A stretch of DNA of 64,000 nucleotides from Porphyra umbilicalis. Lineage: Eukaryota; Rhodophyta; Bangiophyceae; Bangiales; Bangiaceae. The position numbers and the translations under genes are program-made. The DNA is taken from the NCBI GenBank assembly GCA_002049455.2, contig KV918789.1, forward strand, positions 124,001-188,000, written 5' to 3'. Position 1 is the first letter of the stretch. Every line of letters starts with the position of its first letter. Positions 12,635 to 60,576 of the stretch are shown piece by piece. The notes under the pieces were generated by a model. That model was given only the letters and a program-made list of their open reading frames with translations. It did no database searches and was not told where the DNA came from.

Positions 12635-12675
<41 letters not shown>

Positions 12676-16366: not shown

Positions 16367-16397
<31 letters not shown>

Positions 16398-36130: not shown

Positions 36131-37828
36131 CCACGCAATCTCGGTCTGCTGCGCCTTACTCCCGCCGACATGGGAGCTGTGGACTGTGCGGGGGTGGCCT
36201 CGCTGTCCTCCAGCTAGCCCCTCTTGATGCCAATGGTGCTTGTTCTCTCATTCGGAGCGCGCAACACATAGCAACATCGCGATCTGTCTTTTCAGGGTCC
36301 TACAGACTTTCCGACTCCTATTCCCTCAGAATGTAAGAAGTCTAGCGCCCTGAAACTGCCTGAAGCGCGTCGGCCGCCCCACGTTTGGCCTTTTCGCCAA
36401 CTACGCACCACCCTTTCTTCATGTGGGAGCGGTCACACGGCTAGGAGACCACTTGCCTTGTGGACGCAGCGGCGTTCGCCGCTGTCATTCTGCCCCATTC
36501 ACCTTTCTCACTTCCCCATATCCCCCCTCCCGCGCCGCCTGTCACCCCCTCACGCATTTTGGATGTGCAGCTCTCGTGCCGCAACGAGATGGTTATCTCT
36601 TCTGGTAGTCAAAGATCTTGACTATTGAGACAGTGCGACTGCGGCTTTGACAAGCACCGTCATCCATACTTCCACGACGTCCTGGTCTGGATTCAGCTGC
36701 TCCGCAGCACGAAGGAGAAAAGCTACGACGGATGCGTCCGCCTCATTTTTTGATTGACCCGCGGTGCTCTCTGTGCCGCCTGTCGACGAGAACACTCAAC
36801 TGCAACAGGCACTGGCGCTCTCACTCAGACTCCAGGAAGCTCAGGGCCGTGCTCTTGGGCCCGCAAACGGGTGCCCATTGTCCGGTCTACCTGGTACCGT
36901 TGACCGCAGCGCGGTGCTGGGACGGCACAAGAGCGCCGAAGCTTCCTTACACTGAAGAACTGCTCTCAACTCCTCAGCGAAGGAGGCAACTGGCCCCGCG
37001 CTATGTTTGTCACAATGTTGGCCTTTGTTTGCAAACGTGCCTGCCCAGCTCGCAGACACCCCTGCGCACGGGCTTCCTGGCGCCCACGTTTCCTTTGAAG
37101 AATCGTGACGCTCACTCCTGTGCTCTCTCGCCATCGCACGCGTTCTTATGGGCACCTTACCTTACTGCAGGGAAAGCACAAGCTGCACAGGCGTTCATTC
37201 CGAGCGCTACGCGCGATCCGCTGACACTACAGCGTGGTCCTGCGTGGGCTCGTGGTATAGGCGCCCACCGCCTGCTGTTTCCTATGAGAAGCCTTGCTTC
37301 TGCGCTGACACTCCCAAATGCATCGTCGTCACCGTTCTGGATAAGCACCCGCGAAAAGGTCTTGGAGCTTTCGAACACTTGCCGCTGGCGGTGGTGCTGT
37401 TGCCGCCTTGCATGCGCGGGCCCACTCAGGTGCGACAGAGAGTCCGCCTGTCGTATGGAGCGCTGTGTGTCAGTCGGGCACTATTGGGGCCTCCTTGAAG
37501 CCCGCAGTCTGACATATCATGGCAAATTCCGTGGAACCGCGACTGGGACTGCCTCGGCAGCCAATTCATGTAAGCTGCTGCGCATTACGCTCGCAGTGCG
37601 GTATGGAATGCTCCAGCCGCCCAAGCCTCCCAAAGCCGTACGGTCTACTTCTCGGACCAGGACTTCCTCCGGCTTGTGCGGACTCACCACGAACGTTACA
37701 AGGGGGGGCCACAACCACCATCTTGGCCTTATCCACCCCGGTTTCTGGTAGGGAGTCGGCTGCGACTTTGCCGGCTGTACCTAGAAGGTGGGATCGTGAC
37801 TGTGTACTCGACGCAGACGACTGGCAAC
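36131..37828 (+). other. Unidentified; weak protease-like fragments
   Basis: At 36,630-36,740 a frame reads CDCGFDKHRHPYFHDVLVWI. At 36,785-36,850 another reads ENTQLQQALALSLRLQEA, which resembles a ubiquitin-interacting motif. Together they loosely recall the insert region of ubiquitin-specific proteases, but the catalytic Cys and His boxes were not found. A 339-codon frame at 36,732-37,751 covers the same place in a different frame and looks fortuitous. Confidence 0.2.
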
Positions 37829-39060
37829 ATGGTTTTTGACGACACGGCGCGCATGCTGGCGGTGTCGTGGGTGCTGTTTGAGGGGTTTACCGAAAAAGAG
37901 GCTGCACGACGCCTCGCCTCCCATCGATTGAATCTGCAGGGATGTTTCAGCGCCTATATCGCGTCGGGCGAGTGGTGGCCTCACCCGGTGTCACGAAACC
38001 GGCATGCGGACGACGTCATCCACGACTCCCATTTCATTGAATTCGTGAACGCTGTCATCCCGTCGGACCCGGGGCAGCTGATAGGTGAAATAAAGGATTT
38101 CTTTGCTTTTCTGTTCACCCTCCCTGGCTACCAAGACTCCTACAAGACGTCTATCGGCACGCTCGACCGAGTCCTTCGCGCTACCGATTTTACCTACCGC
38201 CGGTTGTACCGAATGTGCAGGGAGCGCGACCAAGAACGCCGCGTGGATTTTGCGCGCGTCTTGACAGAGTAATAGCTGTCAAGACGCGCGCAAAAGACAC
38301 GCGGCGTTCTTGGCCGCGCTTCCTGCACATTCGGTACAACCGGCGGTAGGTAAGACCGGTAGCGCGTGGGACTCGGTCGAGTGTGCCGATAGATGTCTTG
38401 TAGGAGTCGCGATAGCGACGGACAGTGGACAGAAAAGTAAGAACATCCTTTATTTCACCTATTTGCTGCTACGGGTCCGACAGGATGACAGCGTTGACGG
38501 CTTGAAGGAAATGGGAGTCGTAGATGACGTTGTCCGCATGAGGGGTGCATCGTCTCCGTTGACGAAACGCACAAAGATGGGGCAGATATGCGGAGACGGC
38601 GCGGCAGGTGGTTTCGCGGAACGTGCTATGATTGCCTCTCTCGGGCTGTTAAGAACATGCTTCGGACTTCACCAATGATGGCAGTATCCTACGAGACGGG
38701 CATCATCCAGTGTGTGACGACACCACCACCCCCCGCGCAGAACTCGGACGTCTGGGAGATATTTTTCGGGGGGCTGCTGCCGACGATGAACGAGGTCGTC
38801 CTTGGGCGCTTGAGCCCGAAAGTGCGTCCTACTCTATGACAATGCGCCCATCCACTCGGCTGAAGCGGACGCATCGATTGCGGCGGCGGGTGTCCTCCCT
38901 CTGCGGCTCCCTCCCTGCCGCCCGGATTTCCAACCAATCGAGGAGGTGTTCAGTGAGCTTTCTAGCTGGTGAAAGACGATGCATCACGCCTTCCCGGGGG
39001 AGCCAGACGCCCTACACCACGCTCTGGCCTTTGCTGCCTTGACGGCAGAAAACATAGGCA
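37829..39060 (+). pseudogene. IS630/Tc1-like transposase, decayed (alpha)
   Basis: The start ATG at 37,829 gives VFDDTARMLAVSWVLFEGF, closely matching the intact copy at 52.6-53.7 kb. The frame stops at 38,272, where an inverted copy of its own middle follows (38,277 to about 38,541). The catalytic half resumes in the plus direction at 38,546 with CIVSVDETHKDG (first Asp). It continues with LLYDNAPIHSAEA (second Asp) and FQPIEEVFSEL (Glu) in a shifted frame, after a change between 38,800 and 38,830. The end of the gene is lost at the junction with the zinc-finger gene. The inverted duplication and the shift make it inactive. Confidence 0.75.
38020..38541. repeat. Inverted duplication, about 250-bp arms, 10-nt loop
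   Basis: The transposase segment ending at 38,266 is repeated in reverse complement from 38,277, with the loop GAGTAATAGC. The arms are about 250 bp long and differ at only a small fraction of sites. A transcript through it would fold into a long double-stranded hairpin. Confidence 0.8.
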
Positions 39061-40592
39061 GCTACCATCCATCGGTTCTCTCCCACCTGACCGACTCGCG
39101 GTGCCGGGGTGCTGGCCCCAGCCACCCCAGGCTGGCCCGTAGACCCATTGCGAAGACTGTGCGCGTCCCTAGGCAGAACGAACGACGAAACTGAGATAGG
39201 CAAACACACAGGCGATATAGTTAGTTCCCGATTGGAGCTCTCTCTCGTGGCTGGAAAACGCGAATAAAGGGATTACGATACAGTCAAGGCAACGGGGAAG
39301 GAGGCACCGCCAACATACAACCGAACCGACCCAACTGGTTCACTCAGCGTGCTCGTCAACGCGCCAATGCGGTCCACGTGGCCTTTGTGCTTGGTTGCGC
39401 TTGCCTTCTCAAGCCGCTTGTGAAGCCCACGTCGAATCACATATGAGTTTAGGATCTCTCCAGGAGCCGACTGTTCACAATCGTTGCCAGCCTGCGTTGC
39501 ATCAGCGAGCAGCAAGGCGGTGTTCTCGTTCATGCCCCCCGCAATCTCACCCGCGTAGGCCTCATGGTAGGCAGCTCCACGAGGGTTGGTCACGAGAGCC
39601 TCTCGTGCATGCGGCCCGGTCAGCGCGTCCGCCACACGGGTCTGGGAGGCGGCTCGGGCCGCCGGGGGTAGGCTTGTTTCGTCTGTTCGCAGCGCCGCCT
39701 TTTTTCGCATGGCGCCGGCCTCGCCCCTGTCTTCTTTCAGGGCTGCTGCACGGCGTGCCGACTCTGCCTCGAGCTCGAGATGAATGCGCTGCGTCTTGCT
39801 ACACATTATGAAGCGGGGCTGGAAGCGCCTCTCCTTATTTTTGATGATGTGCAGTCAACCTGTTTGAGTCCTTCGTAGGGTGAAGGCCTTCGACAAAGCC
39901 ATGGTATGGGGAAAATGTCCCTCTTCAAAGCAAAGTATACAGCTGTGCAGCACCAGTAGCGGATGTCCAATAGCAATTATCAGCGAGTGACTATGACAGT
40001 GCCACGAGAGTCAGTATCCGTCACCGAACGACGAAGCGAGAGAACACAAGCTCCAGAAGACACGAGAAGAAGACATCTCGTCCACAAAAGAAATATGAAA
40101 TGGACACGCACACTGCAGTCCTCGGGAATGTCTTCTTAGCAGTATTAGAGCATGGACAATGTTTGGCCCGAAACTCGACGGGGATGGTCGGGCTGGACAT
40201 GCACTCGAGGCTCCGAGCGCCGCACGTGCCGGCGTTGTGCTTATCGTGCGAAAACCGCTTGCGGTACCCGCAAATCGAGCACACCTGACCCCAGCGGGCC
40301 TCCTCATCCTCCCCACCCGATCCATCGTCAGCCGGGGCACCCCCGCCCAGCTGCGGAACCCCGTCAGACCCAATTGAGGACAGCGGTGCGGAGAACCCAG
40401 AAGCCACCGCATCGGTTGTCCCCACGGGGCTTGCGCGAACCGGTGTCACCGCATTGTCAGTCGCCGTCGGGCGCGTTGGTACAGACCAGTTTAAAGTGTG
40501 GAACCACGACGCTGGCGCGAATCCGCTGGGAGTGGCAGGGGAAGAGGACGTCGCGACGACGTCGGTGCCTACCGGACGGAGCTGGGACGTCA
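39012..40592 (-). pseudogene. CxxC-GYRK zinc-finger gene, alpha copy (decayed)
   Basis: The predicted exons are 40,112-40,592, 39,319-39,942 and 39,168 downward. The first exon has a Ser/Pro/Gly-rich acidic linker, then CSICGYRKRFSHDKH...C (a CCHC-type finger) and CPC. The second begins CILCFEEGH (zinc knuckle) and continues to a helical Ala-rich part containing ALVTNPRGAAY. The third begins DAHSLRNGS and then runs into the antisense of the transposase tail, stopping at 39,012. Intron 1 (40,111-39,943) is GTGCGT...AG. Intron 2 (39,318-39,169) is GTATGT...TAG, 150 nt, phase 2. One in-frame TGA lies in exon 2 between the knuckle and the CSKT block. The first listed exon starts after an AG in phase 1, so a further upstream exon is expected. 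No known family was recognised. Confidence 0.55.
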
Positions 40593-41529
40593 CTGACGCA
40601 CAAATTTTGAATTTCGACCGTCTGGGACACCTATCGCAGCTGGATCGGACTGCTTCCGGGTCATTGTGAGAGCGGGTGGGGGCGCCGGGGGCTCAGCGAA
40701 CCGCCACCCCCCACCCCGCATAATGCGCCGCGAGAGGCGGCATGGCCCAAAAGTCAATTTGAGCAGGCCATCGACGTGCTGACGTGGATCGTGGGAGCGC
40801 GTGTCGAGCGCGCACCTCTGTTCAGAACGCCACTGAGGTGGGGGGGGGGAGGTTATGTATGCGCCCCACTTTCCCGTCGATGGGAAGACTCTGTATCATA
40901 TTGCTGTCTTCCCAATTTTGGCCGGTGTGGTCAAAGTCAAGAAGGGGTCTGGGTCAACTGCCCATTGGTCAATCGAATTTATCTGGCTGAGTGGATGGCT
41001 GAGACGCTGTTCCACACTGTTGATCACCCCTCTTGACATCGACGGGATCGGCCAAAATTGGCAAGACAGCCATAAGAAGCTCAGATGACATCTCTACGGT
41101 AGTTCCACAAAAAACCTAGCACTCGGCCAAGACCAATAGCACCATGGACAAGATCCAAGATTTATGAACACGTGGAAAAGAGCTAAGGAAAATGTGGCCC
41201 GGAGCACTGTGTGGTTGAAGCTGATCCGAACAGCATCATTGCTGCACCTGGGAGCGAGTCGATACTGCTGTGTGTTGCCGCTTCCAGGATCGTCTCAGGG
41301 CCCCGTCAGTGTGGCACTCGGCCTCGGGGCGAAATAGGATGCTCCGCTGCGCAGCAGGGGACAGAGACAGCCAGATTCGACTCGCAACCCGTTCTCGATA
41401 CGCCTCGCTGGTACTGTACTGTTGGACCCGCCCGATCGGCTCCTAAGTTTTCATGAATCTAAATCAACCCAGTGACGGGCCTCAATTTGGATCTGGAAAG
41501 CTGCCAAACCGTTCAGGATCAATATCGAT
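40593..41529. other. Upstream flank of alpha; repeat remnants
   Basis: No gene seen. Read on the minus strand, 40,780-41,060 contains CCAAAATTGG words and a C-run block that match the ends near 28.4-28.8 kb, so it may be the terminal region of unit alpha. Confidence 0.4.
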
Positions 41530-42245
41530 TCATATTACAATCGATCGTCGGCGTGCCGCGCAGCACGGGTCCGCACAAGATTCCGATCGTTGTCATCCGC
41601 CACCTGCTCGATGAGGCGGTGGTGGCCGCCGCATGCGAACGCCGCAGGCACTCGTAAATTGTGACAGATTGCGCGTGGTGGCCTGCGGTCGTGGCCGACG
41701 ACTGGTGACCATGTAGCGCAGCGCAGCCGGCCAGCGGTGCACGCCCCGCTCAACGGCAGCATCCGGGGGTGTTGCAACAACCGTCCTCCCCCCGCCCCCC
41801 ACCTGTTATCTAAAATTGGCAGTGCATCCGACACGCAGGACGCCTGTGGGGCCAGGCACTGTGCGCCCCCCCCCCACTTCATCGTGATGTCCCAAATTGG
41901 CTGTGTGTCAGAAACGCAGTACGTCTCCGGGGCCAGGCACTGGACGCGCCCCCCCCCCCCACCGGGTATCCGAAATTCGCAGTGTTTCCGAAACGCAGGG
42001 TGCCTCAGGCGCCGGGCACTGTGCGCCCCCCCCCCCTCCATCGTGAGGTCTCAAAATGGTAGTGTTTCCGGAGCGCAGGACCTTTTTGGGGCCAGGCACT
42101 GGTCCCGCACCACTCCCCCCCTGATCATACTCCAAATTGGCAGTGTTTCCGACGGCAGGACGTTTTAGTTGGGGCCAGGTACAGGTCGGGTCCCCCCCCT
42201 CCCCCCCTTCATAGGAACCAGAATCGGCAGTGTCTGCAGCACGCA
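41530..42245 (+). repeat. Minisatellite, about 80-bp unit, six copies, with unique head
   Basis: Units beginning AAATTGGCAGTG-like occur near 41,812, 41,893, 41,969, 42,054, 42,132 and 42,218, about 76-86 bp apart. Each has ACGCAGGACG, then GGGGCCAGGCACTG, and ends in a C8-C13 run. The head (41,530-41,700) matches the repeat at 28.37-28.5 kb. The array ends about 350 bp before the zinc-finger gene of unit gamma and may be its terminal repeat. Confidence 0.75.
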
Positions 42246-42590
42246 GGCGGTTCCTGGAGCCCGAAAGCCACTCACATGCTGTTGAGGGGCATCGTCGGTC
42301 ATCTGCTTGTGCGGGTGGGTACAGCACACAGCACGGGTGGCGAAGCCTGGCCCCCGGTGACGTTTCCTCACGATGGCGTGCGCAGCCCCATGCGGACATC
42401 ATTTTGGTGCGCGGGCCGCACTGTCTGCCGCATGTCAGCAGTTCGCCAATCGTATTAATTTGTGTGCCGGCGACGACGTCGAGCGGTCGGGATGGCACCA
42501 CCGTCGTTACGCTGTCCCCTTCCCAGGCCCGAACCCCCTCCCCCTGAGTCATCGACTCGCCCACTGATTGCTTGGTTCACACACCAAACC

Positions 42591-43783
42591 ATGTCATCTG
42601 GTGATGAGATTTGGCCGGTCTGCGCCTGCCCGGCCGACGATGGGGCGGCCGATACGGGACGCGCGGCTGGATCGGTACCGTCGCGTTCCAGCCCCGCTGA
42701 GAATTCGGGTGGTGCGGCTGCCTCTGACGATGGGTCGTCTGAGGCGACTGATGAGGAGGGCGAGGCCCGTCTGGGCCAGGCGTGTTCGATTTGCGGGTAC
42801 CGCAAGCGGTTTTCGCACGACAACCACAACGCACGCACGTGCGGTGCAAGAAGCCTCGAATGCGCTTTCAGTCTAAACGTCCCGGCCGAGTTCCGGGCCG
42901 AGGTTTGCCCTTGCTCTAACACGACTGAGAAGGCAAAAACATGCCCCAAGTCGGCTGTGTATTGCTGATCCCCGAATTTTGTCCTGGTGGACACAGACTG
43001 ACTTGCGGACCGACCCTCTCCACCAATCAGATGCGCCCCTGGGACTGACTTATTGCTCCTGATTGCTAACATGTCCCCATGCAGCCTGGAAATTAACATC
43101 AGCTCCTCTTTTTTTCCGCACTTCTGGCGAGGGAACAGTAGAAAATCTGAAAAGTTCGCGTGGGCAGCTTGCTCCGTGTCAAGAAAAGCGGATCCAGCGG
43201 CAACAAACAGTGAGTTCTGCTGGATGCAAGGTCCTGGCACCAATTGCGGACTTTTAATTGGCTTCGATGCCTTCTTACTGTCGTTGTAAACCAAAAGAGT
43301 GCTCTTGTTCAGAGTCAGTCTCGGTCTCTGTCCCCCAGGACAAAATTCGGGGAGCAGCAATACGTTTTTGTTTCCCTGTGGAGGTGACACAAGTTCCTTG
43401 TTGGATTACACCGTCGTGCTGGCTATGCCGTATGATCATTGGATGACACATGCTAACTCGTGTGTCTCTCGTGTGTGACTTTGCTACGATGTCATTAGCT
43501 GGTTATTTTTTTGTTGCACGCTGTGTTTCCAGGAGGGACACCTTACCCACACTATGACCGTGACGAAGGCCTTCCCTCTTGGACGTACGAAGAATGATCG
43601 GCTATCGATAGGTCAAAAAAAAGGAGGCGCGCGTCGAGCCCCGTTTTATGATGTGCCCCAAGACCGAGGCTGTGTACCTCGAGCGCCAGGCGGCGTCGGC
43701 GCGCCCAGCGGCTACGCTCCAAGCGAACAGGCGCGAGGCGATCAAGGTTCAAAAGCGGGCGGCGCTTTGTCCCGATTGTGACA
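42591..43783 (+). pseudogene. CxxC-GYRK zinc-finger gene, gamma copy, 5' half
   Basis: From the ATG at 42,591 an acidic Ser/Ala-rich linker leads to CSICGYRKRFSHDNH...C and CPCSNTTEKAKTC. The exon ends at 42,958 in phase 2 before GTATTG. The knuckle exon restarts near 43,514 with CTLCFQEGH. An A8 run at 43,615-43,622 separates it by one frame from the continuation, whose conserved part reads PRFMMCPKTEAVYLERQAAS and ends KRAALCPDCD at the beta insertion point. No clean AG acceptor precedes the knuckle, so this copy was probably decaying already. It is strongly similar to the alpha copy. Confidence 0.6.
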
Positions 43784-43880
43784 GAATAAGCATGCGCTAC
43801 TGTCAGCCGCCAGGAATTTCTTTAAAAGGTAGGTCTCGGGGGGTAGCATGTCGAATCCGTGACTTCCGGAAAGGTAGTCT

Positions 43881-43992
43881 GGTATGGTGCGTGTCCCAAA
43901 AATGAGACATCGCGGTTTTTTCTTTTTTTCTTGGCCCACTGGCCTTCTGCAACGGTCCGATGATGTATTGTGCTTCCCAGAAAAAGTGGATC
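43881..43992 (+). repeat. Subterminal inverted repeat, left copy
   Basis: This holds the 30-bp block GGTATGGTGCGTGTCCC... and the 27-bp block TATTGTGCTTCCCAG..., separated by 55 bp. The reverse complements of both are at the right end of unit beta, where the spacing is 517 bp. A T6 tract follows the first block. Confidence 0.75.
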
Positions 43993-44754
43993 CCTCTGTG
44001 CGAAGCAACTGATCCGCTTCAGAGCAATTGTTTGTCATTGAAGGGCTTCCGACGTCTTCGAACGCACATCCGAGAGAGTTGAGGCTGCTGCAAGGGACAG
44101 GGCCGGTGTTCCGCGCCTCCCCATTGGCCCACAGGGAACGATACAAAATGAACAGGCCAGTCCTGGCCGATTTGTGATAAGATCTCAGGACAGACCGGCT
44201 GAATGACGACTCACGAGCACAAGTGCGCAAAACCCGCCGGCCCCCACTTCTGCATGCGCCGTATCTACACGCCATCACAAGTTGGTGTAGCCCAAACTCG
44301 TTCATCCTGTTCTTTCCTGCTGCCCTCCAGCCAGGTTCCGAACCTGTGATTGGATCCCTGCAATGGAAAACCCTCCACCAGCTGCACTGAGCCTTGTCCC
44401 AACGCATGCATCAGGTGGACATCTGCGCTCAGTGGGTGTGCCCAAGCGCAATGATCAACGACGAGCCGTGGAGCCAACCCCGTCGCAGCTCAGGCCTGTG
44501 GACCAGCGCATTTGCTTTGCATCTCCTATTGTGGACACGGTGTCGCTGCGACGATCCAAAACGGGCGCCGCGCCCGGCGTCCGTCACATTTGCTCGGCCA
44601 TCCAAAGCTGCCTGTGACGTTCTGGCAGACAGCCCCCAAAACTGCAGCTTGCCGTCTGCCACGCTGCAATGCCGGCAAGAAAGGAGCCCATCCTCGGACC
44701 ACAGATCACTGGGGTCCACGAGCTCGTGCTTTTTTCGTTCCCGCCCCCCCCATG
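43993..44754. other. Left interior of beta, no recognisable gene
   Basis: Moderate GC with short frames on both strands. Nothing was recognised. Confidence 0.35.
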
Positions 44755-45600
44755 CAGATGCGCATTCCATGGCATTTTCCGGCCTGATCGGCGCCCACCC
44801 TCGGGGACGCAGCGGGTGGGCGATGCGGCCGTCGCCCAAAATTGACATTGCACCCCTCAGTTGGAGATTGGAACACCTGCGCAGTGCACTGGATGGTTCA
44901 GCCCCCGCCCCCCCTCCCCCCCAGATGCGCAATCCATGGTGCTTTTGGGCTCAGTCGGCGCCCAGCCTCGGGGCCACAGCCGGTGAGCGATGCGGCCATC
45001 GCCCAAATTTGAGATTGTACACCTCAATTGCAGACTGGAACACGTGCGCAGTGTACTGGATGGTTCAGCCCCCACCCCCCCCCCTCCCAGATGCGCAATC
45101 CATGGTGATTTCTGGCTCAGTCGGCGCCCAGGCTCGGGGCGGCTGCGGTTGACCGCGACTGTCAGCACCCAAAATTCTTTTGGTTCCACCTTGCTGCACA
45201 TCGGAACTTCCGGACTGGGCACTGGTCCGGATCATCCCCCACCCCCAGCCCCACACCCCCAGATGCGCATTCCGTGGCGATTTTGGGCTCAGTCGGCGCC
45301 CAGCCTCGGGGCCACAGCCGGTCGGCGATGCGGCCATCGCCCAAGTTTGATATTGTACACCTCAGTTGCAGACTAGAACACGTGCGCAGTGCACTGGATG
45401 GTTCAGCCCCCACCCCCGCCCTCCCTAGATGCGCATTCCATGGTGATTTCTGGCTCACTCGACGCCCAGGCTCGGGGCGACTGCGGTTGACCGCGACCGT
45501 CCCCACCCAAAGTTCATTTGGTTCCACTTTGTTGTACATCGGATTTTCCGGACTGGGCACTGGTCCGGATCGTCCCCCACCCCCCCCCCCCCACCGCAGA
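44755..45600 (+). repeat. Satellite array, about 168-bp units, alternating types
   Basis: Units start with CAGATGCGCATTCCATGG (or near variants) at 44,755, 44,922, 45,088, 45,260, 45,426 and 45,597. Two unit types are visible. A carries GCGATGCGGCCATCGCCCAA and CACTGGATGGTTCAGCC; B carries GGTTGACCGCGAC and GGACTGGGCACTGGTCCGG. The order is A-A-B-A-B, so A+B acts as a roughly 337-bp higher-order unit. The array sits upstream of the beta transposase. Confidence 0.8.
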
Positions 45601-46015
45601 TGCGCGTTCAATGGCGGTTTTGGTCTCGGTCTGCGACAAGGCCCGGGGGGATTACCGATGGGCGATGCCATCAATGGGGAAAAACGAATAAACAGGTTGA
45701 TTTGCGTTCGACGCTGTTTTTTTTTTTTGCTATCCGATGTGCATATCATTTTCTGTGCGCACGCGCGCGCCCGCGTTCGTCTCAAGGCCTGGACCGTCTG
45801 TGGGCGCCCCCTCGGGTCTCAGCTCGATCGCACTCCCTCCCGCGCAACGCGACGCGGGTCATGTGCGTCGTCGCGGCGGACCAGGCACAACCTGCCCCAC
45901 CCCTGCTACTATTTTTCCCCAAACACGGCAACGCCACGGGTGATGCGACAGCAGATGCCCCAACCCCCCTGTGAAGACGACAGGGCTACGGCTTGAGCCA
46001 TCTTTGCGTGCAAGC

Positions 46016-47104
46016 ATGTTTCCTCTCGCGGTGCGCTGGCAGGTAATTCGCAACCGCCAGCGTGGCCTCAGTTGGGATTCGATCATCGAGCACTGCAAGT
46101 GAAGCAGGGCGGCAGTGATGGGATGGTGGAACAGTTTCGTGCGCGGCGGGTCACCGTGGAGCGATCCTGTTCTGGAGAACAGGCACGTTGATGCGGCGCG
46201 TTTCCAAGCCCCCTTCTTACGCGCTTTGGAGAGCCTCGTGCGGTCACATCCCGAGGTTTTTCTTCGCGAGATGAAGTCGATTTTTTTCCGCTTGATGACC
46301 TTGCCAGATTTTGACGCGTCCTGGCCCCACAGCATCTCTTCCCTCTCCCGAATGCTCAATGCTATTGGGTTCTCTGTCAAAAAAGTCGAGCGACTGGCAC
46401 AGGAGCGGTGCGCCCAGGCGGCGGAGCTCCACAGCCGGCGGTACAGCAATGTTCCAGATCGGTGCATCGTCGTCGCGGACGAGACGCACATTGACGGAGG
46501 GGCCATGGTGCGTCCTCGAGGTTGGGGTCCAGTGGGCGACAAGGTTGAGATCCTGGCCCCCGACCCCCGCCCGCGAACGCGGTTTTCATCCATTGTGGCT
46601 GTGTCGTACACGCGGGGGGTACTGGATTTGGCTATCCACGAGACCCCCCCTGCACAAGTTGGGGATGACTGGTTGGCTTTTTGTACAAGCCTTGCAATGC
46701 GGATGAACGCGTACGTTCCTGGTGTTCCATGGGACGTCCAACTTGATGATTGTGTTTTACTTTACGATAATGCAGGTGTGCATATCCAGGCGGCTGACCA
46801 ACTTCTTGCGATGAACGGCGTCCGGCGGATGCGACTTCCTCCCTACTGCCCACATCTCTCGAGCATCGAACCAACTTTTGCGGACTACAAGGCCAAAGTT
46901 CGGGACCTGGCCTTTGGCCACCCAGATCTGCCCGACCGAATGCTTCACGTGTTGGCATGGGCGTCTGTGCCTCCAGCCGCAATCCGGGGGCATTATCACG
47001 AGGCGCGTCGGCAATCGTTGCGACACCTTCCCGAACTGACAGGGCCAGGTGGACCGTTGGAGGGTGTCTTCCGTCCCCTTCCTGTCGTGCGCACGGCGCC
47101 GTAA
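46016..47104 (+). pseudogene. IS630/Tc1-like transposase, beta copy, one in-frame TGA
   Basis: The frame from the ATG at 46,016 begins with a helix-turn-helix-like LAVRWQVIRNRQRGLSWDSI and is interrupted by TGA at 46,100-46,102, codon 29. It then runs open to the TAA at 47,104. The catalytic domain shows VADETHIDGG (first Asp), LLYDNAGVHIQ (second Asp) and CPHLSSIEPTF (Glu) with 33 residues between the second Asp and Glu, the same spacing as the gamma copy. It shares the layout WW/DPVL...RH-D, TLP-D and GFSxKK with gamma but is clearly diverged. Recoding of the TGA, or a start at 46,115, is possible, but the simplest reading is a recent nonsense change. Confidence 0.75.
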
Positions 47105-48598
47105 CTTTTTGCTGTCTTGGACCCTCGACACGTCGACCGTTGGCTTCCAGGTGCGCTTCGTGTGTGGAGTTTTTTTGAGGTTACGTAAGTCGACCTTGGC
47201 CCGTCGATGCCACACGGTGTGGCATTCTCCAACACGGCCCCCGCGCCACTGGACCCGCGGTTTCGGTCGTGCACTTGCTACCCACCTCCTGTGCGGGCCC
47301 GGCCTTTGGGTACCGAGGACGATTGCGGGTGCTTTGTGAATCGGTATGCGCTTGCTTGGTGTCTCCCTGGTTCTCTTTCGGTATCGTGTGGATGCCTGGT
47401 ATTTCAGCCTTTCCCCGCTATGCGCCATCTGCCATCGTCTGCCACATCCCCGCTTCATGTTCTGTTGCCTAACGTGCTTTCAACTCGCCGCCCCACTCCA
47501 ATGTGGGACGTGTGCTGCGCTTCTACAGTTTGGTATTCTGCGTTTTTTCTGATGGTTGTCGTATCTACGATGAGGGCCGAACCGGCAAGGGCTGGGTATG
47601 ATTGTCGCCTTGCTCTCTTTCTCGAGGGGGGTGCAGCGGGAGCTATGCCAAAATTTTCTCCGACGCATTGCATTCACTCTTCGACTGGCTCCGTCTTGTG
47701 TCTACACAGTCAGCATTCCCACAGACCGTTGCACCTGTCGCCTCTCCCCTTTTTGTTTGTTTCTCTCGCTTGGGGCCGCCCTTGCTCTGACCGCCACATC
47801 TGGTCTTACTCACTTTAGCGCACGCTGACCACTCCCAATTCACGCGCCGGCCCCGGCTTAGTACACCATTCAGCGTCAGATTCACTGACCATCTCAGCCA
47901 GACAAGACGGCCGGCATTCGCTCCTTCTGCTCGCCGAACCATATCCATCTCGCTCCTCGCTGAGCACTCCACTTCGTTACGATTCCCATCTGTGCGGTGG
48001 GAAACTGCTTGCTCGCATCGTAGACTGTTTCAGATGTACTGCTGGCCTGTGCCTCGGCCAACCATCCGTGTTTACCTTTGGGCTCGGCTGTTCCCAGCGT
48101 TTGCATCCTGTGTTTCCTTCTCTCTCTTGGCACCTTACTTTGGCCGCCACCACTTGTACAGAGCATCTGTCTCATCGCCGCTTGAATGCAAACAATAGCA
48201 GCTTGCTGGAATCGGTTTTCGCCCTCTCATCGCGTCGTTGCGAATGCGAGGAAACTCACTGGTCTCTGATGGAAAGATGACTGATGGACGCCTAGGCTTG
48301 CAGCACATACCCTCTCGTTGCTAATCATGCCACAGAGGAACGTGGAAAGTCCAGCGCCAATGACAACTGGGTGCGCTTATCGCCTGATGTTCTATCGTCC
48401 GAGGGGAAGGGTATAGATGCAAAAAGGACGCTCTAGGCTGACAATAAAGGTGTATACCCATCCATCTCCTGTATGGCTCCTCTAGTCACCCCCAGCACAT
48501 CTGTCCAATAAAACGTACACAACAAGAAGATGAATGCACCCGACTCAAAACGATGCGGCAAAGAGATGCAGACCGGGTTGTGGGCGGCGACTTGGACA
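47105..48598. other. Interior of beta between the two genes
   Basis: Pyrimidine-rich on the plus strand, with many short frames. An AATAAA at 48,443-48,448 (plus strand) could end transcripts from the left. No protein was recognised. Confidence 0.35.
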
Positions 48599-50219
48599 TC
48601 AGCGCTGCGCAGGGCGCAGAGATGCAATCCAGTCCCGGCAGCTCGCTTTGTGGCAGCCAAGCGCCTTGTTGGTGGCTGCAAAGTGAGAAAAAAGATGAGT
48701 CACGAGCTCCTCGACGTCTGCTGACCCCACCAGCGTGGAACCGCGGATGCTGAACTCAGTTGCAGCTGCCTCAACAAGAGACATAAACTCGGCCCTCTCA
48801 GAGCCAGTCTCGTCTGCAAATACCCACTCGGTCAACGAGCCCGCGACTTGAGACGGGGCCAATCGAGGACGACCGAAAGGCCCAGTAACACCAGGGGTGC
48901 CGGCATCGTCCAAAAGGACGACCGGTGCGACGTCAGAAATTCGCTGCGACCTGCAGGCACAAGCCAACGGAAACAGACGTAGAAAAAAAGAATACTGGTG
49001 CAAAAGAATGGAGCGAGTCAGTACCAAGTAACGCAATGAAGGCAGAATGGGAAACAGCGAGAAAGATGTGAACACAATGTGCGGCATAATGGACCTGAAC
49101 AGAAAGACAACGTACAGGCGACGGGATCCCTGGGGGGCCTCAAGCCCAACAGCTGCATCCCGGAGCCGCTTGGCCGACCGTTTTTCAGCGTCGACGCGTC
49201 GGCCGCTCAGAACGGCTAGCGCCATGCCAGCGGCATCATTCGATGCCACCCCACTTGGTGCGCCCGTCACGTTGGTGACAGCGCCGGCCCAGGCGCTGGT
49301 TACAGCGTCCAGGCCAGCGTCAGCACAGCGTGCCTGCTCTTTGCTTGCCGCAACGTTAACAGCAGACACAGTGGAGGCTGGCGACCCCAGCCCGACGAGC
49401 GTCTGGATAACGTCCGTCCGTGGTCTGGACGCGCTCGCAAGGTTGGCCACAAGCCCATTGCGTCGGCGCTGCTCCATCTCCAGCTTCTCGTCTTCTGCCT
49501 CACACGTGGCACGGCTGCGCTGCGCGGCGCTCTCAAGGATCCACGGCTGGCGCGATTGTGGGCACGCGTAGGAGAGATGCGAAAGTTTGGCACTGGGCTT
49601 CTTTGTGAAGGAAATGCCGCCCTTTGTGATGTTCTTTTTGAACAGCCGCCGGCTCAACGCGATAGTAATGGGCTGATGTCCCTTCTTGTAGCACTTCGTG
49701 CATCTGTGGTGCGCGATTCAAACCCAGAGATGGCCGAGAAGAGTCAGGGCATCACAGGAAGTTAACAGCACGGTACAAAGCAATGATCTGAACAGCGTGG
49801 CGATGATAGATATAGAGGGCGTGAGATGGGGTACCGCACTGAAGAGCCATCGGAGGAGCAGCAGGTGACCATGTGGGCCCACGGGGAGCCGAAATGGGAT
49901 GACAGATACGAGAAAATACCGTCCGATACCCACTCAGCAGCCGGGACAACGTACAATTTGAGGCAGTCACAGCCATCCTTGGTGCAAGGTACCAGGGAGT
50001 AGTACGCGTCTGTTGGTTCCAATGCCGACGGGCACTGGATGCGGTTCTTGACGATGATGCAGTCTTTGAAGTAGTGTACGCTTCCCGACGCGTGTTTCTT
50101 ACGGTACCCGCAAGCGCCACAGCTTGCAAACACAGGCGCGTCCGGGGATGTTGGAGATGAACTGGCACCGGCCGGGACGGCCGACTGGACCGGTGCACCT
50201 CCATGCGATGAAATGGAGC
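48599..50219 (-). CDS. CxxC-GYRK zinc-finger gene, beta copy (intact-looking)
   Basis: The exons are 49,955-50,219, 49,116-49,703 and 48,599-48,950. The introns are 251 nt (GTACGT...ACAG) and 165 nt (GTACGT...GCAG), both phase 2. The first listed exon follows TTTCTTTCAG in phase 1, so at least one upstream exon remains to be found. The protein has CGACGYRKKHASGSVH...DC, then CTKDGCDC. Directly across intron 1 comes LCTKCYKKGHQPITIA, a second Cys cluster. A basic stretch, an Ala/Arg-rich helical region (ACPQSRQPW...RRVDAEKRSAKRL) and a C-terminal domain (SERAEFMSLVEAAATEF) follow. The start of the first listed exon is a splice acceptor, not an ATG. No stop or frame break is seen. The family is unknown to me. 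Given the cysteine clusters, a DNA- or RNA-binding accessory protein of the element is the natural inference. Confidence 0.6.
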
Positions 50220-50808
50220 CTGAAAGAAGGCAAACACGCGTGCAATGGCAGGCACGAGTAGATCGGTCCGTATCAGCCGGAGGAATAAGCAAAAGGGAAC
50301 AGAACTGGTGTCAGAAAGGTAATTGGATATGCCGTACTCCATGCGGTCCCGCAGCGCGCGGCGGGGTCTTCGTGTAGGTGTGTCACGCCCGGCCAGACGC
50401 GTACGCGTACAAGCGTCCTCCCGCCGACGTACTCATGGCTGCTGTAGGGGATATGCAAGGACAAGCGCGACTCGCGTCGACGTAGCAGCGACGGGGACGG
50501 GTGGCGGGACAGTGATGGGCGTGACGTCGTGACGCCGCATGAGCGGTGGATGACGCAGCATCGGTGATGTCACGGCCCGCGGTCTGAACATTCCTCAAAT
50601 ACCGACAAAAGTTTTGCACGAAGACTGGAACAAATCTCAAAAGTGGAAAAGACGGATCGGAATATTTGTGAGGCTGGAACAATTCTTAAAACAGGAGAGG
50701 ACGGAACGGAAGATTTGTGACGGGCAAACAATCTTGCGTATCAGATGTAATTGCATGGCATCAGTATCTGATCCGTTTCGACAGGCAGAAGAGTCAGATG
50801 CAGAAGGT
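50220..50808. other. Upstream flank of the beta zinc-finger gene
   Basis: It should hold the missing first exon and promoter. A minus-strand ATG near 50,454 (MSTSAGGRLYAY) is one candidate start, but its available donors do not give the needed phase. Confidence 0.3.
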
Positions 50809-51382
50809 GATCCACTTTTTCTGGGAAGCACAATAATGTGACCCACTCGGTCCCTTTGTGCTTTCAGAACGACCCCTGACAGTGTTATCAGAAGCGGCAC
50901 ATCCTCACGTGTCATGGGGGAAAGTGTCATTCATTGCAACTTCGACAGGTGACGATCACGCGCCCCAATCAAATGCACAGACACTAGAGCTGGCACGTGC
51001 TGACAATTTGTGCACAAAGAAAAGGGCACCACCTTGCCAATAAAAACGTGAAAAAAAACCATGTAGCCCCCTGTGAGGAAAAAACGATTTAGGACGCCCC
51101 TCATCGAAGCTCCAGTTAGCACATGAGCTTTGGCGTTGCAAACCTGTAACCCCAAGAACCTGAAAAAGACTGGCTCCAAGATCGGGGCTATCTGAGAGGG
51201 CCACAGAACAGGGCCCACAGGCGGGTATTATGGAGTTGTCAGCCAAGCACTCGTCGGGAGAGGCTCTTTCCATGGAGGCCAGACGAGAATTTTCTCGTAC
51301 CCCACGCCGCCTGCCCCCGTGCAGTGATGTGTCAGTCCTTCAGAAAACGTGCATGTCTCATTTTTGGGACACGCACCATACC
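50809..51382 (-). repeat. Subterminal inverted repeat, right copy
   Basis: The reverse complements of the 27-bp and 30-bp blocks of the left end lie at 50,809-50,835 and 51,353-51,382. Next to the second block the minus strand reads TGGCTTAGTGG, which resembles a tRNA A box, but no full cloverleaf forms. Confidence 0.7.
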
Positions 51383-51516
51383 TTGACCACTAAGCCACGG
51401 GCCCAATCGGCCCTCCAACTAAGCCCAAATCTGAACATCATATGTCCAGATTATTGGACAATCCGCCTCCGGGTGTGCCGGAATATAGCAGCCTCTATAC
51501 TGCTACACCGATGACA

Positions 51517-52473
51517 TTAACCTTCCCTCAGCCGCCCGAGCTGCAAGCATGGTCCGCGTGGCCGACGCGATGACAGGTCATCAGGCGCGTGCCGCGCTGG
51601 TCACAAATCCGCGTGGCGCTGCCTACCGCAAGGCGTATGCGGGTGGCATCGGCTCCGAAATGGCCGAGATTGTCGCCTTCCTGTACGCCGGTGCGACTCA
51701 AGCCGGTATTGAGTTCGGCGAACCGGCTTCTGGGGAAGTGCCCAACTTCGAGGTGGTTCGGCGCGGGATTCTCAAGCGGCTTCAGAATGCGAGTGCGACA
51801 AAGAAGAAAGCCCACGCCGATCGCATAAGCAAGCTTCTGGGCGCTTTTAGTGGCCCTACCGGTTCATCCAGACTGTACGTTGGCTTTATGGCTTCTCTCT
51901 TACGTCGTCTCTCCCCCCCCCGTCTTTCTCGCATTCCGATTTAGAGAGCGGAAGCTGCAACTTGACACTCACACGAGCTCCATCGATATCCCTCATATTC
52001 TTGCGTTTCGATCCCATCTGCTTCACAGGGACGCTCACAACCTCCGGTATGGATCATCCAGCCGACCAGCGCATGCTGGGTCTCGCGCCGACCTGCCGGC
52101 TACCAACGAGGTGGCCGGGAACCAAACGCCGGCCACTGGCCTGCCCGGGGGACCCAGCAGCGCTGCCGCTGCCGGTGAGAACGCCGCGTTCAATCACTTT
52201 GGCCCGGCGGAGCTTTCCGAGAGCATCGGACTGTTCATTTATGGACCGAGCTCCTCGGCGGAGCGGGAGAGCTTCGTTTGCAAAGCGCGCGCGGGGATGA
52301 AGAGCCAATTTGTCCATGGACACACGGTTTCAGGGTCGTCTTTGTCTACGTCTGCTGTGGTGGCACTCATTCTGTGTAAGTGGGGGAGCGCAGGGCAGGA
52401 CCATTCATCTATTGAGGAACTTCCCGCGGGTTTGGTTGACACAGTCACACGCTGGGTATCTACCCATCGTTGA
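51517..52473 (+). pseudogene. CxxC-GYRK zinc-finger gene, gamma copy, 3' half
   Basis: The frame continues from the insertion point with LPSAARAASMVRVADAM, matching LPPAARAASQTRVADAL of alpha, through ALVTNPRGAAY to a GTACGT donor (exon end 51,874). The 154-nt intron ends CACAG, and the last exon (52,029-52,473) begins DAHNLRYGS as in alpha. That exon carries SSAERESFVCKARAGMKSQF, which aligns with GSERAEFMSLVEAAATEF of beta. The intron phase is 2, as in both other copies. An AATAAA lies 54 nt after the stop. Confidence 0.6.
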
Positions 52474-52526
52474 GCGTTCTTGTTGAGAGTCGTTCGCCTT
52501 CCTTTGGTTTGTCTCGCACCTTCGTC

Positions 52527-52532
52527 AATAAA
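52527..52532 (+). promoter_or_regulatory. Poly(A) signal of gamma zinc-finger gene
   Basis: AATAAA lies in the 102-bp gap between the two convergent gamma genes, shortly after the stop at 52,473. Confidence 0.5.
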
Positions 52533-52575
52533 TCTGTCTTTGCCTGTCCTCCTCTTCATCATCATCTACTCTCGC

Positions 52576-53709
52576 TCAACGGCTCAAAGGCATCTTGCCA
52601 AGGCCCCTCTGGACCAGCGACCTCCGCACATTCCGAACGGCCTCCAGAAGGCAATGCGCAAAGTCCCTGCCAATATTTTCCGCCGACAAAGAGATAATCG
52701 CTAAGGCGTGGCGGAGGGCGTCGGGCTCCTCCGGAAACGAATGATGCATCGTCTGGAGCAGGTTGGACAGATCACTGAAGACCTCTTCGATTGGTTGAAA
52801 ATCTGGGCTGTAGGCAGGAAGCCGCAGCGGGAAGACGCCCGCCACCACAATCCACGCGCCCGCTTCCGCCGTGTGGATGGGTGCGTTGTCCAATAGGAGG
52901 ACACACCTATCGGCTTGGAGTGCCCAAGGCAACGCCGGGACGAACTTTTTCATCCTTGGAAGCAGCCCTGCGAGGAAGATCAGCCAGTCATCCGAGTTTT
53001 GTGACGGGGGAGTGGGTGTCGTCTCGCAGTGGATGACGCCCGTCTGGTAGAATACGGCCATCATGGTGGAAGCTCGGAGGATGTGCTTTCCGGCGCCCGA
53101 AAGGCAGTCATATTGCATCCCGCAAATCCACCGACCACGCCTGCGCCGCACGTCGCCTCCATCCTTGTGCGTCTCGTCAACTGAGACGATGCACCGTAGC
53201 GTAATTGACAGCATAACGCGCGCAAACGCCTCCCGGCGCTCCTGGTCCCGCTTCCGACACATTTGATACAGCTTCTTGAAGGAAAAGCCGGTAGCTCGAA
53301 GAATGCGGTCGAGCGTCCCAATAGAGGCCTTGTATGAGTCGCGGTAGCCAGGGAGAGTGGATAGATTGGTAAAAACGTCCTTTATTTCACCTATCAGCTG
53401 CTCGGGGTCCGAAAGGATGACAGCATTGACGGCTTGAAGGAAGTGGGAGCCGTACATGACGCTGTCGGCGTGTCGGTCGCGTAAAACAGGGTCCGGCCAC
53501 CACTCGCCCGACGCGACGTAGGCACGAATCCACACCTGGACCGTCGCGCGTCTGCAAGCTAAGCGCCGCGCAGCCTCTTTCTTGAAAAAGCCCTCAAATA
53601 GCACCCAGGTGACAGCCAGCATCCGCGCGGTGTCATCAAAGACGATGGTGTCCCGCATACGAGCCGAACGCGGAGCCCTTCTCCCACCTGCTCGCCGTTC
53701 CGACCGCAA
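52576..53709 (-). CDS. IS630/Tc1-like DDE transposase, gamma copy (intact)
   Basis: This 377-residue frame has no break. A possible later start at 53,658 (MRDTIVFDD) fits the alpha copy better. The N-terminal part has a helix-turn-helix with KEAARRLACRRATVQVW, then a WWPDPVL linker and RATGFSFKKL. The catalytic core reads IVSVDETHKDGG (first Asp), CVLLLDNAPIHTAEA (second Asp) and LPAYSPDFQPIEEVF (Glu). There are 33 residues between the second Asp and the Glu, and the SPDxxPIE box is that of IS630/Tc1. Such enzymes cut and paste DNA between inverted repeats, usually at TA. It is convergent with the gamma zinc-finger gene. No terminal inverted repeat was found by eye. Confidence 0.85.
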   Translation of the reverse strand: MRSERRAGGRRAPRSARMRDTIVFDDTARMLAVTWVLFEGFFKKEAARRLACRRATVQVWIRAYVASGEWWPDPVLRDRHADSVMYGSHFLQAVNAVILSDPEQLIGEIKDVFTNLSTLPGYRDSYKASIGTLDRILRATGFSFKKLYQMCRKRDQERREAFARVMLSITLRCIVSVDETHKDGGDVRRRRGRWICGMQYDCLSGAGKHILRASTMMAVFYQTGVIHCETTPTPPSQNSDDWLIFLAGLLPRMKKFVPALPWALQADRCVLLLDNAPIHTAEAGAWIVVAGVFPLRLPAYSPDFQPIEEVFSDLSNLLQTMHHSFPEEPDALRHALAIISLSAENIGRDFAHCLLEAVRNVRRSLVQRGLGKMPLSR

Positions 53710-54129
53710 CGTCGCCTCTAGCAGAGTTCTTATCGACTAAGAGGGGCCTCATGGTAGCGTTGTGCCCCCCCGTGCTGACATGGGACGAATGCGCGGGAGT
53801 CTCAGAGGCACGCACGGGAATAAAAGTAGTCCGCCTGTTCCTGGCAGGTCTCTGGCGAGCGCAACATTGAAAAAGGCACTCAGTTGAAAATGCAAGGGCA
53901 CACCAATGGAATTAGTAATGCATGCCTCAGTGCCCTCATTGGTCATATTGGCACGCAGCCGACCCGTCACGAACGATACATGCAGAATCTTTCAATCTCA
54001 GTGATGCTACCCTGGGCCGTGCAAGCTCCATTGTTGTTTGAGCTTTATGCAGCCCCTTGCCCACGATGCAGGGGTCCACAGCAACGGCAACGTAGCCTAA
54101 AGTCATGCATGGCAGCCCTAGAAATGGTC
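53710..54129. promoter_or_regulatory. Upstream flank of the gamma transposase
   Basis: On the minus strand a TACTTTTATTCC stretch (about 53,817-53,828) could serve as a TATA-like element upstream of the transposase start. Nothing else was seen. Confidence 0.3.
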
Positions 54130-54850
54130 AGCACAGTCAACAAGCCACCTGTCTACGGGTGCCACAGAAGTTTCCGGGACGAACACTGCACAGCGCCGTA
54201 CTGACCACGTCTGGGACTGAGCTTTCATGGTGTCTGCGATGCCAGTGGTACAGATGGCGCGACATGGACAGTCCAGCACGACGTGTAGGCTACCCAGGCG
54301 TCTGCATAGGTCTCCAAGACGTCGCGTTAACGCGCGCATTTATTCAGCTCTGGCTCCGGCCTCAAAAAAGAGACTGGTCCAACTGGTGGCGATCAGCACC
54401 AAGATCGTGTGATAGCGAGACATCGGCAGGGTCGTTCTCAAAAGAACCAGCGCTCGAGGGGTAGGAAGATACCAGGGACTTCTATCACAATCCGCTCTAA
54501 ACGGTCAGACGGCAGCCATCTCTATGTACAGGTCTCCAGCCATAGGGTGCGACAGCCGGGCCAGGGAGAAACAGTGGACAGCAGCTTACTGACCACGTCT
54601 TTGACTGCACCATGATGGCGTCAACGGTACCCGCGGTACAAGCAGCGTGATGAGCCGTGGTCGGCACGACGCTTGCTCTACGCAGGAGTCTGTACAGGTC
54701 TCCAGAACGTGGTAGTGCCTTGCACTTCACCTCAAGTCTTGCTCAAGCTACGAACTTCAGGCTGGTTCAATTGGCGGCACAGGGCGCTACGAGTGCTGCT
54801 CGATACCGTAGGCTTCAACCAGTGTCGACTCTACCACGCCCTGGGATCTG
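54130..54850 (-). repeat. Tandem repeat, about 385-bp unit
   Basis: CTGACCACGTCT occurs at about 54,202 and 54,588, and the sequence on both sides is similar. A third, partial start is near 54,838. On the minus strand both units can be read as related peptides (GDLC/YR...CTxGxxDxxxxQSxTWSV...FxPxxxVAP), so the repeat may once have been coding. The family was not recognised. Confidence 0.55.
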
Positions 54851-56582: not shown

Positions 56583-56625
56583 GGTTGTTTCACGATGGCA
56601 AGTTTGGTGCGGATCCGCAACGGAA
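56583..56625 (+). repeat. Left TIR of the Harbinger element
   Basis: Matches the right end over about 41 bp, with a divergent 8-base middle. The inner part GGTGCGGATCCGCA is shared. Confidence 0.8.
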
Positions 56626-57156
56626 GCCACCGGGATGAAATTAGGAACAGTTTCCTACTTTGAATATGAATATTCTACACATTTGGACAGTTTTCGAAGG
56701 ACACAGGATCCGGTGGCGTCCAGACCCCCCCGTAGTTCACAGAAACGCTCCCGCACCCCTCCATTCCCGCAGCTCTGGAGCACCCCCCCCCCTGGCGGTG
56801 CGGAATTGGCCGGATCACGACAAGCGGAATCCGGACCCCCCTCCCAAAGGTGCGGGAAAGGGGGGGTGTGCTCCCACAGCCGGTGACCCATGCCAAGCGG
56901 CGCGCGCTCCAGCACGCCGCGGTGCCATCCGTTTTCTTTTCTCGTTCACACCAGCTGCTGCTCACCGGGGCCAACAGGCCACGAGGAGTCTCACACTCGT
57001 GTAACTGTGTTGCGACTCAGCTGGGTGAGGATACCCCGCCTTTCCCCTGTGGGTTCGTCCCTGTGTCCCGTGCGGCACCGACGTCCCCGCAGCACTTGGC
57101 CCGCTGCCCACGGCACTTGCTCCCCTCCACCGCACGGCACTCGGTTTTCACTCGTC

Positions 57157-58428: not shown

Positions 58429-58447
58429 ACGAGAGGGGCTACAACGC

Positions 58448-58453
58448 AATAAA
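58448..58453 (+). promoter_or_regulatory. Poly(A) signal of the Harbinger transposase
   Basis: AATAAA lies 20 nt after the transposase stop codon. Confidence 0.5.
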
Positions 58454-58757
58454 AGCAAAAGCCAGCATCGGTTTCTTTTTTCACTCTCTGCTTTCATACA
58501 TATACTTACACTGAACTGGGAGTGTGTATTTGGATTGGAGTTGGTTTGCACTCTTTGAAGATGATGCGAGATCGAGCCGAGATTCTGCTCCGTGTTCCCC
58601 GTGTTCCCCACCGAGAGTCGTACCCGATGCACTCAAGGACGGTCGCAAGGATCGACACTTGGCTCAAGAAAAACACAAACAAGCGGGAACAAACACTGCA
58701 TGCTACGTAACCGGGCACAAGAAGCCGGAAAACACAACCAACACCACCGCCATATCA

Positions 58758-60533: not shown

Positions 60534-60576
60534 ACCCGGTGCGGATCCGCACCGGAGTGCGCATCGTGAAGCAACC
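60534..60576 (-). repeat. Right TIR of the Harbinger element
   Basis: The inverted counterpart of the left TIR, ending in CATCGTGAAGCAACC, followed by TA. Confidence 0.8.

Follow-up and report, generated by a model that had tools for sequence, protein, structure and literature searches.

A two-gene element family of the IS630/Tc1/mariner type in the red alga Porphyra umbilicalis: a DDE_3 transposase paired with a spliced Cys/His-rich gene

Tc1/mariner transposition is the textbook case of a reaction carried out by one protein. In this study, we analyzed a 64,000-nucleotide stretch from the red alga Porphyra umbilicalis, contig KV918789.1, positions 124,001 to 188,000 (the window; C29:124001-188000 in our numbering, in which C-numbers denote contigs and L-numbers extracted loci of the 83.8 Mb genome of 665 contigs). 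The window contains three elements, alpha, beta and gamma, in each of which a transposase of the IS630/Tc1/mariner (ITm) type is accompanied by a second gene, the partner. ITm elements are described as usually having a single open reading frame (ORF; PMC8533490), as the first-pass annotation of this DNA had correctly stated, and as generally working without accessory proteins, the TBE elements being called a surprising exception (PMC12242761).

TBE of Oxytricha and related ciliates is the nearest Tc1/mariner precedent. It is described as combining a Tc1/mariner DDE transposase with accessory ORFs under purifying selection, one of 57 kD with zinc finger and kinase and one of 22 kD, and as having a region of ~200 bp with short tandem repeats (PMC4724952, PMC7325037). 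The ciliate Tec elements are described as having three ORFs, one of which is a site-specific recombinase (PMC7325037). TBE resembles the Porphyra elements in the transposase, in the zinc-finger type and selection of the additional gene, and in the tandem repeats. Different from the three described TBE ORFs (42-kD transposase, 22-kD ORF in reverse, 57-kD ORF), the Porphyra elements compared contain two conserved gene regions, the partner being spliced and convergent with the transposase; no Pfam kinase match was found. By description, the partner differs from the TBE 57-kD protein in its domains. The terminal sequences of the Porphyra elements are not telomere-type (C4A4) inverted repeats.

Several DNA transposons of other superfamilies encode a second, non-catalytic protein, including VANC of VANDAL, TnpA of En/Spm and MURB of MuDR, some of which act on subterminal repeats; with these, the partner was compared only through sequence searches of Pfam and PDB. 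Harbinger elements produce a 3-bp target duplication and carry a Myb-like partner. Harbinger transposition is described as requiring two proteins, which also mobilise miniature inverted-repeat transposable elements (MITEs); for one of them, ORF1, earlier work is cited as suggesting both binding to the terminal repeat and a need for it in bringing the transposase into the nucleus (PMC2836001). Like PIF/Harbinger, the Porphyra elements join a transposase to a second, putatively accessory, element-encoded protein. However, the PIF/Harbinger transposase is of the DDE_Tnp_4 type, whereas the Porphyra elements have DDE_3, TA and zinc-type modules, and neither DDE_Tnp_4 nor a 3-bp duplication. By this comparison they fall within the ITm superfamily, and the resemblance to Harbinger would be at most an analogy, not membership. 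At the level of titles and abstract openings, with subscription journals thinly covered, we found no published account of this element family.

Two genes inside TA-flanked inverted repeats

The two-gene element family is real to near certainty; both genes form one element because they have TA-flanked inverted repeats in common, transpose together and evolve jointly. Beta (Table 1) is 6.87 kb in size, with inverted arms at 43966-44001 and 50800-50835. Its insertion site is empty, with a single TA, in one copy (L039, contig C65) of the short element delta, into which beta is inserted. With its two borders and the empty site found, beta stands out as a clean unit that encloses the two genes. Two further beta copies, L030 (C245, both ends) and L031 (C14, of which the fetched stretch contains the partner-side end alone), are ~97% identical to it over ~6 kb, and their flanks differ. 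The outer repeats at 43885 and 51378 were considered as beta borders and rejected; they are assigned to delta because the L030/L031 homology spans only ~43963 to 50836. In a third family, two copies (L032 in C84 and L033 in C8) with TATTGTC ends are 99.5% identical over 6.94 kb and have different flanks, which indicates that both genes move together.

The transposases belong to the ITm class by several features. Three transposases lie near 37.8-39.06 (+), 46.1-47.1 (+) and 52.6-53.7 kb (-), which bears out the first-pass annotation: the DDE_3 catalytic domain (PF13358) is over the cut-off in the last two, beta and gamma, and the alpha transposase DNA is 74-75% identical to that of gamma over two long stretches, its broken frames giving no Pfam match with hmmscan. 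The beta transposase frame, 333 residues in the window, is 386 residues in length in C245 and C14, with 98% identity. Chains of Mos1 and of Sleeping Beauty are weakly similar to the transposase (E 0.02-0.14). In beta and gamma, 33 residues separate the second D from the E according to our motif assignment, one less than in the textbook ITm spacing, DD34E.

TA flanks the element at both ends in beta, L030, L032, L033, C4 and C264, and at one end in L031; as an exception, the partner-side end of L022 is followed by TC. Besides the beta arms, terminal inverted repeats of 62 bp (81% identity) and 56 bp (98%) were found in C4 and C264, respectively; such repeats resemble Tc1 ends. What departs from the usual, non-defining ITm trait of a transposase alone is the second gene inside the inverted repeats. 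The elements are also larger than the gene pairs marked by the first-pass annotation, not only beta but also the alpha/gamma relatives, which measure 14.6 kb in C4 (14,573 bp) and 16.0 kb in C264 (15,951 bp), both with TA and with ends of the type TACAGTCGTTCC. A transposase-side end near the transposase was rejected for this family; the second repeat is found upstream of this gene at a distance of ~10 kb in C4 and ~11.5 kb in C264.

The alpha/gamma end pattern, with up to one mismatch, occurs 64 times forward and 73 times in reverse (reversed control, 0). Among the 100 places listed, nine end pairs are 2.33-2.37 kb apart; one such element, L036 (2.3 kb), has only its ends in common with the large elements. 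A related end pattern, with up to two mismatches, has 212 + 232 occurrences (control, 0), and many of the 100 listed are pairs ~134 bp apart, such as L037, a 134-bp MITE that by eye is an almost perfect inverted repeat. Judged by their ends, these short elements would be non-autonomous and moved in trans.

The partner is a three-exon gene with three copies in the window, each convergent with one of the transposases. As confirmed by alignments, the copies belong to one family with C-x2-C-G-Y and C-x2-C-x4-GH modules and common middle and C-terminal parts, as the first-pass annotation had proposed. Exon 1 (7 sequences) has an invariant C-x2-C-G-Y, one His and three more Cys; exon 2 (8 sequences) has C-x2-C-x4-G-H and a distant Cys, the first Cys, the G, the H and the distant Cys being invariant or nearly so; exon 3 (8 sequences) contains an R-G-x-T-x2-G motif. 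The Cys/His spacing suggests that the modules bind zinc. Different from the zinc-knuckle (CCHC) proteins, the partner has C-x2-C-x4-H with a distant conserved Cys; no Pfam zinc-knuckle model exceeded the cut-off, the best being zf-CCHC_2 with E 0.49 in one of 10 proteins.

A GT-AG intron joining exon 1 in frame to the second zinc module can be placed in all seven loci tested (L026 was outside the test set), with more than one placement allowed in L010, L012, L016 and L030; in L030, four donors are compatible with beta exon 1, among them GTGGGT. The exon order is supported by L038 (C187), an intronless homologue that carries both zinc modules in one unbroken frame. This relative (L038:283-2052) has a long low-complexity tail. 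Furthermore, the public model P0094 (hypothetical protein BU14_0222s0010, Porphyra umbilicalis) matches the partner gene of C131 except for skipped stretches: it leaves out the intron that precedes exon 3, together with a portion of exon 2.

Besides those of Porphyra, nearly all protein matches are metagenome or read-archive entries; the attribution to a red-algal family by the first-pass annotation stands for Porphyra. That the partner came from viruses or bacteria was considered and rejected, no confirmed relative being found in viral contigs (partners and transposase) or GTDB contigs (one partner exon) by pattern scans that detect fairly close relatives only.

Pairing and joint evolution across the genome

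The genome searches scored the best candidates only (107 of 379 for the gamma transposase, 121 of 380 for the beta-type transposase search and 150 of 359 for PF13358), so that all genome counts are lower bounds. In the pairing counts (the 92-locus set, the tandem-layout set and the 223/228 union), repeat entries were dropped by judgement and near same-strand matches were merged, and the numbers refer to merged loci. Chance figures are the genome coverage of the neighbourhoods, without shuffling.

The gamma transposase has at least 109 matches, the alpha partner exon at least 56 and beta exon 1 at least 26. Among the alpha-exon matches listed, 46 of 56 are convergent with a transposase within 6 kb, 9 have none and 1 is on the same strand; for beta exon 1, the numbers are 10 of 26, 15 and 1, respectively. 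When the alpha- and beta-type queries were merged and combined with the wider transposase search, 65 of 92 listed partner loci were convergent with a transposase within 5 kb, 1 was on the same strand and 26 had none; 1.7 of the 92 are expected near any transposase. In the window's own genome, the prediction that partner copies lie near convergent IS630-type transposases was thereby upheld.

With L038, the distant intronless type, as query (at least 150 matches) and with PF13358 for the transposase (at least 150 matches), the union reached at least 223 transposase and at least 228 partner loci. A transposase was found within 5 kb of 82 partner loci, 79 convergent and 3 on the same strand (chance, 6.6). 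Within 20 kb, 141 of 228 listed partner loci are paired (chance, 24.8 in all): 113 convergent, 18 in tandem with the partner upstream, 7 in tandem with the partner downstream and 3 divergent. Tail-to-tail pairing, as first described, is the layout of most pairs; in some families, accounting for 18 of the 141 pairs, the partner precedes the transposase in the same orientation. Seven loci related to L038, with the partner 8-13 kb upstream of the transposase on the same strand, represent another layout. Convergent pairs 13-17 kb apart occur in C21, C41, C115, C138, C57, C86, C113, C228, C116 and C498; perhaps these are very large elements with genes at opposite ends.

The two genes are also what remains alike between distant elements. 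The C4 and C264 elements align at 1728-4501 and at their ends only; each contains ~10 kb of other DNA, with no alignment between them. At the protein level, the matches shown between distant elements (best 14 per comparison) are confined to the two gene regions; when C264 or beta was compared with the other type, almost only the transposase was detected. The partner is retained beside transposases 31-39% identical to the gamma query. By these comparisons, the association between transposase and partner may be old, since it spans transposases of such divergence, partners with and without introns, and both the convergent and the tandem layout.

Between two gamma subfamilies (L009, L010, L011 and L018 vs L012, L013 and L014; 12 comparisons, not independent), the ratio of nonsynonymous to synonymous substitution rates (dN/dS) lies at 0.12-0.22 in the transposase. 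In the partner it is lowest in exon 2 (0.09-0.16), followed by exon 1 (0.25-0.39), whose reference extends a few codons beyond the likely donor, and exon 3 (0.28-0.40). The dN/dS comparison covered 22 of 24 loci, L023 and L026 being dropped for want of a close group, and alpha/gamma-type pairs with five or fewer differences were left out. These values point to purifying selection on both genes. In addition, the protein distance matrices of the transposase and the partner exons (14 loci) correlate with r = 0.90-0.92, a value reached in 0 of 5000 permutations.

Nested and rearranged elements in the window

As listed in Table 1, beta sits at the innermost position of a nest, in the order gamma > SINE-like (short interspersed nuclear element-like) insert > delta > beta. 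Delta sits inside the SINE-like insert, and its own empty site, with one TA, is found in L009; for a 451-base stretch in its interior, the genome contains 41 further near-full-length matches (90-96%). By eye, the SINE-like insert has a tRNA-like stretch; ARAGORN reported no tRNA in the window. The ~400-bp insert at the intron donor of the gamma partner is absent from the relatives L010 and L011, with the empty site GTGTACGT. The first-pass annotation had described the gamma partner as split, and two pieces are indeed present; they are separated by inserts (the ~400-bp insert and the SINE-like/delta/beta nest). An ordinary intron was rejected, as the relative L010 is without either insert and L011 without the ~400-bp insert.

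A candidate for the other gamma end, with one mismatch, is located outside the window at C29:194168-194189. Gamma also contains a Harbinger-like element at 56582-60577 (DDE_Tnp_4, PF13359, E 6.7e-23), with a 3-bp duplication, AGT, and ends AGGTTGTTTCACGATG; it is absent from C264, and its second frame, 58761-60473, is convergent and without a Pfam match. L009 (C301) shares the alpha/gamma junction with the window (9408-10000 vs 40744-41336, 93% identity); this copy, which has neither delta nor beta, would be the product of an old duplication or else a haplotype that has diverged.

Alpha is degraded, and its second end was not found. Its transposase contains a 265-bp inverted duplication (38003-38267/38276-38540) with an 8-bp spacer. 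The arms are ~89% and ~90% identical to L015, so the duplication is not a fresh copy. Compared with L016, alpha has a deletion at ~39060, to which some of the transposase 3' end and roughly three quarters of exon 3 of the partner were lost. The left end of alpha (26771-28780 and 30339-33195) resembles the partner-side end of C4, with the body inverted, which suggests a rearrangement via recombination between subterminal inverted repeats. Elsewhere in the window, the GC content is 75-86% at 8001-18000 vs ~58% around the elements.

Table 1. Positions of the elements, genes and repeats within the window
Feature	Position	Strand	Basis or remark
Alpha element, degraded and rearranged	26771..41094		terminal repeat TACAGTCGTTCCTCAAAAAACC at 26771; piecewise homology to C4 element
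Alpha transposase remnant	37825..39060	+	frame broken by inverted duplication and 3' deletion
Alpha partner exon 2 frame and remaining exon 3 start	39061..39854	-	comparison with relatives
Frame with alpha partner exon 1	40021..40692	-	comparison with relatives
Gamma element	41095..64000		partner-side end TACGGTAGTTCCACAAAAAACC; continues past window end
Tandem repeats of ~80 bp, partner-side subterminal region of gamma	41785..42239		self-comparison of window
Frame with gamma partner exon 1, C-x2-C-GYRKRF..H..C	42459..42959	+	open frame and exon alignment
TA-flanked insert of ~400 bp at gamma partner intron donor	42962..43360		43-bp arms
Gamma partner exon 2, first piece, CTLCFQEGH module	43515..43776	+	open frame and comparison with relatives
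SINE-like insert of ~237 bp in gamma partner exon 2	43777-43884 and 51379-51507		~5-bp target duplication; absent from L010
Delta, short TA-flanked element split by beta	43885..51378		terminal inverted repeat TGGTGCGTGTCCCAAAAATGAGAC
Beta element, complete, two genes	43968..50833		TA at 43966-43967 and 50834-50835; terminal repeat TTGTGCTTCCCAGAAAAAGTGGATC
Tandem repeats of ~167 bp, transposase-side subterminal region of beta	44710..45668		self-comparison of window
Beta transposase frame	46103..47104	+	PF13358 9.7e-10
Beta partner exon 3, conserved C-terminal part, RGST..G	48599..48943	-	acceptor by eye from reading frame
Beta partner exon 2, zinc module 2 and middle part	49112..49703	-	exon 2-3 donor by eye at conserved RLY
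Beta partner exon 1, zinc module 1	49934..50310	-	5' end provisional; window coordinate by eye
Gamma partner exon 2, second piece, beyond SINE-like/delta/beta nest	51508..51826	+	comparison with relatives
Frame with gamma partner exon 3	51829..52473	+	open frame and exon alignment
Gamma transposase, 386 aa	52576..53736	-	PF13358 1.6e-11; sub-threshold HTH_28

Possible roles of the partner protein

These are cut-and-paste ITm transposons with a DDE_3 transposase and a convergent, spliced Cys/His-rich gene, and we consider it probable that the product of this gene is a transposition accessory protein, most likely working like Harbinger ORF1. The transposase would cut and paste the element; the zinc-module protein would bind the terminal repeats or recruit the transposase to them, as suggested for Harbinger ORF1, and so may help the transposase to find or synapse the ends, or to enter or act in the nucleus. 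Mobility would then require both proteins. Should these proteins also move the short elements of 134 bp, as the common ends suggest, the essential cis sites would all lie within 134 bp. Evenly balanced in our judgement is the wider proposal that much of the ITm load of a red alga is a two-protein system, and that the partners form a new zinc-module accessory class without known relatives, which arose independently of Harbinger ORF1 and the TBE proteins.

Several observations weigh against an accessory role or the generality of the pairing. The partner has no usable Pfam match, and profiles of its three exons found no PDB chain below E 0.57. Its AlphaFold2 model, calculated from 26 database proteins, the first of which (P0058) has a frame that runs across an intron, is poor, with a mean pLDDT (predicted local distance difference test) of 54 and a pTM (predicted template modelling score) of 0.27. 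The accessory proteins of Oxytricha TBE are described as leaving DNA-binding profiles in E. coli unchanged (PMC12242761). When members of one subfamily are compared, point estimates of dN/dS are often 0.4-1 in both genes and at times exceed 1, which would fit copies decaying after insertion. The listed loci with a partner or a transposase within 20 kb also leave a remainder: 131 of 223 transposase loci have a partner and 92 have no detectable one, and 87 of 228 partner loci have no listed transposase. Not all pairing loci are independent, because some go back to a single insertion (the alpha/gamma junction is common to C29 and C301, and C394 and C72 match over 10 kb).

The partner may instead be an element-encoded regulator outside the transposition complex, such as an anti-silencing or transcription factor acting on subterminal tandem repeats, modelled on VANC of the Arabidopsis VANDAL elements; this we regard as rather unlikely, but worth keeping in mind. 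Subterminal arrays are present in both beta (~167 bp) and gamma (~80 bp), and the end pattern of the 134-bp MITE is abundant although this element is too short for an array, so that the arrays are probably dispensable for movement and could serve regulation. However, the arrays differ between the beta and gamma families, the two that were compared. A self-limiting repressor of transposition, for which it speaks that a convergent gene near the 3' end of the transposase could regulate the latter, appears improbable, since such a repressor is expected to be often lost in multiplying families and the partner is kept beside highly diverged transposases.

The first-pass annotation had left open whether the zinc-finger protein is a dedicated cofactor or cargo, and the cofactor is the better option. 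As cargo, the gene would be useful to the host or to spread and unrelated to transposition. The non-aligning DNA in C4 and C264 indicates that the elements can carry extra sequence, but in the distant elements compared, nothing except the ends, the transposase and the partner aligns, and the divergence of the partner parallels that of the transposase. Since very diverged families retain the partner, whereas the rest of the element is not conserved, we give cargo still less credence than a repressor. That the pairing merely reflects clustering or nesting of two unrelated repeats is hardly conceivable: the window is indeed heavily nested, but convergent pairing is far above chance genome-wide, and both genes lie within one repeat pair with an empty site.

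Taken together, the accessory role remains our preferred reading, under which the Tc1/mariner-type elements of Porphyra may need two proteins to move. As the partner is kept across transposases that share about one third of their residues, an accessory contribution to an ITm DDE transposase becomes testable. The elements form a large, diverse and partly recently active set in a red seaweed. Their description would improve the annotation of red-algal genomes, in which at least one such protein is labelled 'hypothetical', and the two proteins are candidate two-component tools for seaweed genetics.

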